Source: Bacteroidota bacterium (GTDB lineage: Bacteria; Bacteroidota; Bacteroidia; Chitinophagales; LD1). From it: a stretch of 64,000 nucleotides of DNA. The position numbers were made by a program, and so were the translations under genes. The first letter of the stretch is position 1. Each line of letters begins with the position of its first letter. The stretch is taken from assembly GCA_026391075.1 (NCBI GenBank), contig JAPLES010000080.1, positions 1 to 64,000 of the forward strand. The letters are read 5' to 3'. Of the stretch, positions 16,914 to 36,505 are shown piece by piece. Below the pieces are notes generated by a model. The model was not told where the DNA came from. It did no database searches and worked only from the letters and a program-made list of their open reading frames with translations.

Positions 16914-16969
16914 GTCATCCTGAGCTTGTCGAAGGATTTTTCAATACGCTTCGACAAGCTCAGCGTGAC
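16914..16969 (+). repeat. REP-like palindrome (CTTCGACAAGCTCAG family)
   Basis: Inverted repeat with arms near 16914-16935 and 16948-16969, core CTGAGCTTGTCGAAG / CTTCGACAAGCTCAG, 12-bp spacer, GTCAT...GTGAC at the ends. The same core arms recur at 35150 and 35350. It lies between two convergent-independent plus-strand genes and may act as a terminator, but has no T-run. Confidence 0.75.
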
Positions 16970-34809: not shown

Positions 34810-35133
34810 ATGTTAGACAGAATTCTAAACCCCGCTCCTACTATTTACAAATGGGATAATTTTTTTGTTGGCTTTGTGCCCGGATTAATTTGTCCGTTGT
34901 TGGCGTTCCTCTTTTTCTATACTTTACAAATGAAGGAGATGAGTTTCGAAACCTTTCTTCATCATTCCATGATTCCCGATATTTTTTCAAAAATCATCAG
35001 CTTCGGTTGCATCATTAACCTAGGTGTATTTTTCATTTTTATTACCCGTAACTATTACAATGCCGCGCGTGGAGTAATTGGTGCTACTATTCTTTGGGGC
35101 ATTCCTATTATCTATATCAAAATTTGCATGTAG
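34810..35133 (+). CDS. Small membrane protein, unknown function
   Basis: A 107-residue protein with two to three hydrophobic segments: about 22-42 (FVGFVPGLICPLLAFLFFYT), about 63-80 (IISFGCIINLGVFFIFIT) and about 88-105 (GVIGATILWGIPIIYIKI). There is no signal peptide and no recognised family. It begins 21 bp after surE and precedes lpxB, with a repeat element in between. The conserved-looking NYYNAARG segment lies between helices 2 and 3, likely cytoplasmic. It could be an envelope-stress or lipid-related accessory protein because of its neighbours, but there is no direct evidence. Confidence 0.65.
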   Translation: MLDRILNPAPTIYKWDNFFVGFVPGLICPLLAFLFFYTLQMKEMSFETFLHHSMIPDIFSKIISFGCIINLGVFFIFITRNYYNAARGVIGATILWGIPIIYIKICM

Positions 35134-35149
35134 AAGAATGATTGTCCCC

Positions 35150-35364
35150 CTGAGCTTGTCGAAGGGTCAATAAACAAATAGGATGGGTTCTTAAATATCA
35201 TTTAAATAAAAAGTAGAAAATAGAACGCTTATTTTCATTATTCAGCCGCTAAAAATGATTCAAAATCAGGTTTTCAATAATGATAATCATGATAATAAGC
35301 GTTCTATTCATTTGTGTGATTTAAACGCCTGACCCTATAAAGAAAAATGCTTCGACAAGCTCAG
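35150..35364. repeat. Nested palindromic element: REP-like arms around a 185-bp structured insert
   Basis: Outer arms CTGAGCTTGTCGAAG (35150-35164) and its exact complement (35350-35364) are the same REP-like core as at 16914. Between them lie further nested inverted repeats: AGGGTCA / TGACCCT (35163-35169, 35330-35336), a 15-bp pair around TAGAACGCTTATT (35219-35233, 35294-35308), and TCATTATT / AATAATGA (35235-35242, 35276-35283). No reading frame of note. It fills the gap between the small membrane-protein gene and lpxB. Confidence 0.75.
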
Positions 35365-35407
35365 CATGACATTTCGCAATGAGCATGAGAAACAACTAAA
35401 GAACGAA

Positions 35408-36505
35408 ATGAAATATTACATTATAGCAGGCGAAGCAAGCGGAGATTTACACGGTGCTAACCTTATCAAAGAACTGAAGGCGCAGGATGTCACTGCCGAT
35501 GTGCGCTGCTGGGGTGGCGATAAAATGCAGGCTGCCGGTGGTGTGGTGGTGAAGCACATCAACGATTTGGCTTTTATGGGTTTTTTTGAAGTGGTGAAAC
35601 ACCTTCCCACTATTCTCGGAAATATTTCGTTTTGCAAAAAAGATATACTCGCTTTTCAGCCCGATGTAGTGATACTGATAGACTACCCGGGCTTTAATTT
35701 CCGCCTATTTGAGTTTTTGAATAAGCAGAACATCAAAATTTTCTACTACATCTCGCCACAGCTTTGGGCTTGGAAGAAAGGAAGAGTAAAAAAGGTGAAG
35801 CAATATGTTCACCGCATGTTTGTCATCTTTCCTTTCGAAAAAGATTTTTATGAAAAGAACGGAGTGCAGGTGGATTATGTGGGACACCCTTTACTGGACG
35901 AATTGCGAATTGCGAATTCTGAATTGCGAATTGAACAGCCGAATAATATTGCTTTAGTTCCCGGCAGCCGCAAGCAGGAAATAGCGTATCTGCTTCCCGA
36001 ATATTTAAAAGTAGTGGATGAATTTCCGCAATACAAATTTATAGTCACCGGCATGAGCGGCATTGGCGAAGCGTTTTACCGTAACATCATCCGCAATAAA
36101 AATGTGGAGTTGATAATGGATGATACCTATGGCGTGCTCAAAAAATCGAAAGCGGCAATAGTTACTTCGGGCACCGCTACCCTCGAAACCGCTTTGCATA
36201 ACATACCCGAAGTAATTTGCTACAAAGGCAGTCCCATTTCTTACTTTATCATCAACGCTCTTATTGATAAAAGCATTGGCTTCATTTGCATTGTCAATCT
36301 CATTTGCGGTAAACGCGTGGTGGAAGAATTGATACAAACCGATGTAAATAAAAACCGCTTAGTGGCGGAACTCAAAAAAATTACCGAAGGTGAAGAACGC
36401 CAGCGCATCTTAAGCGACTATGAACTGCTTCGCCAAAAATTAGGTAATGCAGGCGCATCTAAACGCGCGGCTGAGTTGATGATTGAGTATCTAATCCTTC
36501 GCTAA
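35408..36505 (+). CDS. lpxB: Lipid-A-disaccharide synthase
   Basis: Condenses UDP-2,3-diacylglucosamine with lipid X to form the lipid A disaccharide (GT19). The 365 residues have the N-terminal YYIIAGEASGDLHGANLI, PQLWAWKKGRVKK, VGHPLLDE, LVPGSRKQEI and TSGTATLETAL motifs. The ATG at 35408 is used; the frame runs up to 35366 but that extension begins within 2 bp of the repeat element and is not conserved. An in-frame heptamer array (35900-35934) encodes ELRIANSELRIE between VGHPLLDE and the LVPGSRKQ motif, a spot where the family varies. The 3' end overlaps the convergent pruA gene by 15 bp. Confidence 0.95.
   Translation: MKYYIIAGEASGDLHGANLIKELKAQDVTADVRCWGGDKMQAAGGVVVKHINDLAFMGFFEVVKHLPTILGNISFCKKDILAFQPDVVILIDYPGFNFRLFEFLNKQNIKIFYYISPQLWAWKKGRVKKVKQYVHRMFVIFPFEKDFYEKNGVQVDYVGHPLLDELRIANSELRIEQPNNIALVPGSRKQEIAYLLPEYLKVVDEFPQYKFIVTGMSGIGEAFYRNIIRNKNVELIMDDTYGVLKKSKAAIVTSGTATLETALHNIPEVICYKGSPISYFIINALIDKSIGFICIVNLICGKRVVEELIQTDVNKNRLVAELKKITEGEERQRILSDYELLRQKLGNAGASKRAAELMIEYLILR
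35900..35934 (+). repeat. Heptamer array inside lpxB (unit GAATTGC)
   Basis: Five 7-mers in a row: GAATTGC, GAATTGC, GAATTCT, GAATTGC, GAATTGA. It is translated in frame as a short hydrophilic helix-like stretch in a variable loop of LpxB. Both strands of this unit are free of stop codons. Confidence 0.75.

Follow-up and report, generated by a model that had tools for sequence, protein, structure and literature searches.

A MITE-like palindromic element within a REP pair of a Bacteroidota bacterium and its association with GxxExxY genes

Introduction

The described systems closest to the locus reported here are MITEs, REP/BIME repeats, and the REPtrons and TIRtrons. In TIRtrons, inverted repeats enclose a small nuclease gene, and some of these elements have dispersed copies; the nucleases concerned are the RAYT/TIRYT HUH transposases (PMC3733652). 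The present locus lies in a 64,000-nt window (the whole stretch of DNA that was analysed; contig JAPLES010000080.1 of a Chitinophagales bacterium), in which a REP pair encloses a palindromic insert. To our knowledge, no mobiliser is known for many of the dispersed palindromes of bacteria, and the common annotation GxxExxY has no function attached to it. Linking the two would supply a testable function for GxxExxY as well as a candidate mobiliser for the repeats.

Layout of the locus

The interval and its neighbours contain the following features.

34810–35133, + strand: upstream neighbour, a 107-aa ORF with conserved synteny
35143–35167, − strand: left REP unit TGTCCCCCTGAGCTTGTCGAAGGGT, with its 15-bp arm at 35150–35164; a matching unit is present in the empty-spacer REP of relative G015
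35170–35178, unstranded: left copy of the 9-bp target duplication, ATAAACAAA, read from the sequence; collapse gives the 18-nt spacer length of G015
35179–35336, unstranded: inserted 158-bp palindromic element in its extended form, without an ORF, delimited from sequence, copies and relatives
35220–35307, unstranded: core palindrome ATAGAACGCTTAT...ATAAGCGTTCTAT, 88 bp, a dispersed repeat family with ends common to GxxExxY-bearing elements
35220–35232, + strand: left 13-bp end motif ATAGAACGCTTAT, from the motif count
35295–35307, − strand: right 13-bp end motif, inverted, from the motif count
35337–35345, unstranded: right copy of the 9-bp target duplication, ATAAAGAAA, identical to the left copy at 8/9 positions
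35346–35371, + strand: right REP unit AATGCTTCGACAAGCTCAGCATGACA, with its 15-bp arm at 35350–35364; also in the G015 comparison
35408–36505, + strand: downstream neighbour, an ORF that we take to be lpxB-like, with the conserved start MKYYII at 35408
16920–16963, unstranded: second REP pair of the same family, without an insert, 14 nt between arms

The initial annotation had described exact arms with 185 bp between them, a nested symmetry of the insert and the lack of an ORF, and all of these are confirmed; the arms are 15 bp long and lie on opposite strands. The pair AGGGTCA/TGACCCT lies at 35163–35169 and 35330–35336, and the inner pair is also present (35219–35242 and 35285–35308; 24 nt, 92 % complementary, with the outer 15 bp perfect). 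No ORF of at least 60 aa overlaps 35165–35349. The 12 bp given between the arms of the earlier REP pair has to be corrected to 14 bp (arms 16920–16934 and 16949–16963).

An ATG at 35366 lies inside REP-derived sequence, and relatives lacking the REP start the lpxB-like ORF at the equivalent of 35408. Because this first ATG is within REP-derived sequence (35366–35407 of the window), automatic start calling would lengthen the ORF by about 14 spurious residues.

Insertion of the 158-bp element

The lpxB-like gene was located in all 18 of the 18 genomes of the genus, and the interval was compared in the two closest relatives, G004 and G015. G004 lacks both REP and insert. G015 carries the same REP pair as the window, with a spacer of 18 nt that holds no insert, and in the window the REP arms are 185 bp apart. 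These 185 bp consist of the 18-nt spacer, one additional 9-bp repeat copy and the 158-bp element, which is bounded by the near-identical direct repeats ATAAACAAA and ATAAAGAAA. Since collapsing the 9-bp repeats gives back the 18-nt spacer, the window state is an insertion. The earlier suggestion that one palindromic element had grown within another is thus borne out, as the naive site and the uninterrupted REP are seen in relatives and the interrupted REP in the window. At the level of sequence, both the gain of the REP and the insertion of the 158-bp element are demonstrated, and the locus cleanly documents how a mobile palindrome landed inside another, sister species having kept the intermediate states. 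On the other side of the lpxB-like gene, G004 carries a tandem array (L203:1108–1461) of 8.4 copies of the 42-bp unit TTTCACTTAAGTAAAACTGGCTTCCGAGTTTTCGGATGTTGA with 89 % matches.

Two further extended copies were found. The second, C84, is missing from both relatives and has the 9-bp duplication CAAAAACAT on each side (9/9, offset by about 2 bp), with one copy of CAAAAACAT at the empty site. The third, C60, sits in an older GAACGC palindrome, the simple form of which is still present in G004. At the orthologous site (G000:C60:163159–163346; G015 locus L263) the GAACGC palindrome of G004 has ATCAT-type units, and a palindrome in G015 has similar GGAAC..GCGTTCC ends with CACAGAT/CGGAT-type units, as if arm units had been swapped and the ends retained.

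Core-only copies such as C15 and C44 have empty sites in relatives and no clear duplication. The 9-bp duplication was seen in extended copies only (8/9 in the window), and target-site duplication together with an empty site, the MITE criterion, was found for the extended form only. As core-only copies show no duplication, the extended form may have a different mobiliser. One unlikely, but not negligible, reading derives the 158-bp element, as a MITE, from a conventional DDE insertion sequence; it would contain a GAACGC palindrome by chance, and GxxExxY would have had no part in its insertion into the REP. The 9-bp duplication at two extended copies, its lack in core-only copies and the inverted repeat that the extended ends form by themselves (TAGGRT..GGCGTTTAAAT) would all agree with such an origin. 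However, the GAACGC core is present in every extended copy, and genome BLAST, which might overlook an IS with short terminal repeats, found the extended ends only in the short copies.

The core repeat family

The core ATAGAACGC...GCGTTCTAT occurs in about 11 copies in the genome at 70–89 % identity, mostly without REP arms, and these copies show that it belongs to a dispersed repeat family. Among the signs that the initial annotation had counted against its reading were a single-copy insert and unrelated sequence at this locus in relatives; the insert is instead a dispersed multicopy family, and the relatives show an empty site. The label 'MITE-like' is likewise apt for an element that is short, non-coding and multicopy, with inverted ends and with empty sites in relatives.

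The end motif ATRGAACGCTKAT is present 21 times in this genome, 62 times in G012, 40 in G011, 39 in G014, 31 in G006 and 16 in G008. The remaining congeners have 0–7, and the reversed control gives 0–2. Inner units of the insert subfamily are TCATTATT, where gene-bearing copies have TATGAT, and one element of G012 (L084) is a hybrid with one arm of the insert type and one of the gene-bearing type. As the inner units differ, the insert is linked to the gene-bearing copies by the shared ends and this one hybrid. Solo palindromes in congeners share about 30–50 bp per arm with gene-bearing copies at about 80–100 % identity; only arms are shared, and no gene remnants are present. Another locus of G012 (L289; G012:C549:3600–4300) holds three half-palindromes with GCGTTCTAT ends in tandem at 81-bp spacing, an arrangement that suggests one-ended or tandem amplification.

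The nested symmetry and RNA folding

A structured RNA had also been proposed for the insert. Folded as RNA it is very stable (z −7.4; 0/200 shuffles as stable), and a DNA fold of the other strand gives z −6.9. The proposal is not upheld. No Rfam family was matched at gathering score, the best match being a plant miRNA family (E 0.018, score 26.5 vs a cut-off of 90). Nor was within-element covariation found, a lack that the initial annotation had itself counted against its reading: complementarity between the two arms of one element does not exceed that between arms taken from different elements of a subfamily (p 0.96–0.99 and 0.81–0.93, tested per subfamily). The symmetry therefore comes from each arm keeping its consensus and not from compensatory change, a pattern that is as expected of putative paired DNA ends. 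That the nesting was selected as the fold of a structured RNA, terminator or attenuator is extremely improbable; the very low folding energy speaks for it, yet the subfamilies show no covariation (p 0.8–0.99), Rfam offers no family and the element is missing from the same locus in relatives.

The REP layer

The REP arm has 4 matches in the window with up to 2 mismatches, vs 0.05 expected, and the REP 15-mer has 82 copies in the 3.6-Mb genome (reversed control, 0). Most copies are inverted pairs of the hairpin unit TGTCAyyCTGAGCTTGTCGAAGrr with variable spacers, mostly of 6–20 nt. The outer layer therefore has the high-copy short palindromic units in alternating orientation that define REP/BIME elements. 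No GTAG or CGTC tag was seen in the REP units examined here. A search of the open-access literature with the REP 15-mer in either strand returned no paper.

The genome encodes four Y1_Tnp matches. These were considered as the REP-linked transposase and rejected, as no REP or GAACGC palindrome lies within ~1.5 kb of any of them, and the arrangement of a RAYT-associated REPtron, an HUH Y1 transposase gene flanked by the repeat, was not found. It is accordingly very unlikely that the palindromes are moved by an HUH tyrosine transposase in a RAYT/TIRtron-type system: the genome has the four Y1_Tnp matches and the outer layer has REP/BIME-like anatomy, but the repeats are not near those matches, and any gene enclosed by GAACGC arms was GxxExxY in the loci surveyed.

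GxxExxY genes of the genus

Insert-type ends flank a GxxExxY gene (TIGR04256, PF13366) at one conserved site in G006, G008, G011, G012 and G014. The site has a gap in G011, where the upstream end only is readable, and the G008 copy looks frameshifted. G010 has a different GxxExxY gene with GAACGC arms built of other units. Wherever GAACGC arms enclose a gene in the surveyed loci, the gene is GxxExxY; gene-bearing relatives with insert-type ends are found in congeners, and they enclose GxxExxY and no known transposase. One gene-bearing element of G012 (L226; G012:C175) has its outer arm duplicated, so that versions of 522 and 649 bp are nested. For the conserved-site gene, dN/dS is ~0.05–0.08 with dS near saturation, which points to probable purifying selection.

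Five of the six genomes with at least 16 end motifs carry the conserved-site gene, the exception being the genome studied here. The probability that all five carriers (5/5) fall within the top six of 18 genomes is 6/8568 (calculated by hand), which is no independent test given the shared ancestry of the carriers, and the copy-number correlation is confounded. None of the three GxxExxY genes in the present genome has GAACGC arms, and no gene-bearing copy with the arms of the insert was found in its 98 %-complete draft assembly. The arms of the three local genes were rejected as dispersed families, being single-copy or nearly so in this genome. No empty site for any gene-bearing element was found in the genomes compared.

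Association of GxxExxY with flanking palindromes across phyla

The association was assessed in 106 GxxExxY genes (from the family and from 80 loci of many phyla), collected by protein and not by repeats, with inverted repeats between the two flanks counted at a score of at least 20. Such repeats flank 61 % of the 106 genes; the corresponding figures are 1.8 % for 275 control ORFs and 5 % for mismatched flanks (p ~1e-31). Outside Bacteroidota/Ignavibacteria, the share is 82 % in 22 loci. The arms are inverted repeats of ~9–10-bp units, and their association with the gene is, for the sequences compared, demonstrated. A wider count of ORFs flanked in this way gave 85 with the GxxExxY motif and 19 others, several of the 19 being divergent or truncated GxxExxY proteins. 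Loci with these inverted-unit arms, defined here as the GxxExxY-flanking palindrome class, include the insert-type ends in five congeners.

At non-orthologous sites, the more similar two proteins are, the more 6-mers their arms have in common (Mantel r 0.36, 0/2000 permutations); for the outer flanks r is −0.04, and GC content does not account for the arm signal. Such tracking would be expected if the protein recognises its own arms, or if the unit is inherited whole. AATACA upstream and TGTATT downstream of GxxExxY are enriched 6–8-fold in the loci of this family (L091–L120, L219–L258). The pair was rejected as a universal terminal motif; it is unenriched in a broad set of loci from other groups and is therefore lineage-specific.

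A rather improbable alternative accepts GxxExxY and its arms as a genuine unit and regards the arms as operators or as protective sites that serve autoregulation or a control of the restriction or addiction type, with solo palindromes as decayed copies spread by recombination. The coevolution of arm and protein fits any DNA-recognition role, and this alternative also agrees with the long vertical retention of the gene-bearing copy, which five species keep at one site under purifying selection. The solo copies, however, are numerous, at unrelated positions with empty orthologous sites, which asks for mobility, and have arms but no gene remnants in common with gene-bearing copies.

The GxxExxY protein

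Seven residues are invariant across 72 sequences: G17, E22, Y25, D62, E72, K74 and Q86 (E72xK74). The family matches TIGR04256 and PF13366 (PDDEXK_3) at E ~1e-36 to 1e-42, with a conserved D...ExK, and its predicted structure is confident (pLDDT 96). Both Foldseek and VIA-align group it with PD-(D/E)XK nucleases. VIA-align placed the Cas4-like Sso0001 first (Z 10.4) and gave Hjc resolvases Z 6–8, where matches below Z 8 may reflect just a common arrangement. Foldseek returned no structural match at E 0.001 or better, and no sequence homologue was found among solved structures (best E 0.74). The predicted model and the conserved residues make GxxExxY a protein of PD-(D/E)XK fold with a D...ExK active site, and a putative nuclease.

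No paper tying GxxExxY to such repeats was found in the open-access literature, and in the text examined GxxExxY is mentioned only as an annotation. A search with PDDEXK_3 returned no paper, and other searches gave only REP/MITE background.

Proposed origin and mobilisation

The account that we favour, and consider moderately probable, is that the locus is a three-layer nest in which a MITE-like palindrome of a GxxExxY-associated family lies inside a REP, with solo copies mobilised or maintained in trans. A REP pair entered the intergenic space before the lpxB-like gene, and the 158-bp non-autonomous MITE-like palindrome then inserted in the REP spacer, duplicating 9 bp of target. Its core, ATAGAACGC...GCGTTCTAT, represents a repeat family of GxxExxY-associated elements with paired inverted arms of ~9–10-bp units. 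In gene-bearing copies the arms enclose the gene for the small PD-(D/E)XK-fold protein. These three layers, and the association of arms with the gene, are visible in the sequences. GxxExxY-type nucleases would mobilise or maintain the solo palindromes in trans, recognising either DNA ends or cruciforms in the unit-built arms. Binding and cutting of the arms by GxxExxY, through which copies without a gene would be mobilised in trans, is our inference. The data suggest that GxxExxY and its flanking palindromes are an overlooked kind of mobile element. A broader and more tentative proposal, which we hold with less than even confidence, is that GxxExxY could be the mobiliser of the whole palindromic class in many phyla, each paralogue having its own arm family and gene-less palindromes spreading in trans.

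Comparison with known systems

Like MITEs, the element is short, ORF-less and multicopy, has inverted repeats, is located intergenically with empty orthologous sites and, in its extended form, has a 9-bp duplication. Unlike in MITEs, nearly the entire core is one palindrome of ~9–10-bp units, the gene between matching ends encodes a PD-(D/E)XK-fold protein and not a DDE transposase, and core-only copies show no duplication.

GxxExxY itself (TIGR04256, PF13366) is annotated only as a protein of unknown function, and the descriptions consulted do not include flanking arms. The PD-(D/E)XK core is common to GxxExxY, Cas4 Sso0001 and the Hjc Holliday junction resolvases; the likeness is of fold only, at ~13–21 % identity, and a shared fold shows no function.

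With REP/BIME elements and the REPtrons and TIRtrons (PMC3733652) the locus shares its outer layer, a REP-like inverted hairpin pair. It differs in that no GTAG or CGTC tag was seen in the REP units here, which have no HUH gene beside them, and in that GAACGC arms enclose GxxExxY. RAYTs are thought to spread REPs in trans; should GxxExxY be the mobiliser of the palindromic class, it would act likewise, but through a nuclease fold unrelated to theirs and by another chemistry.
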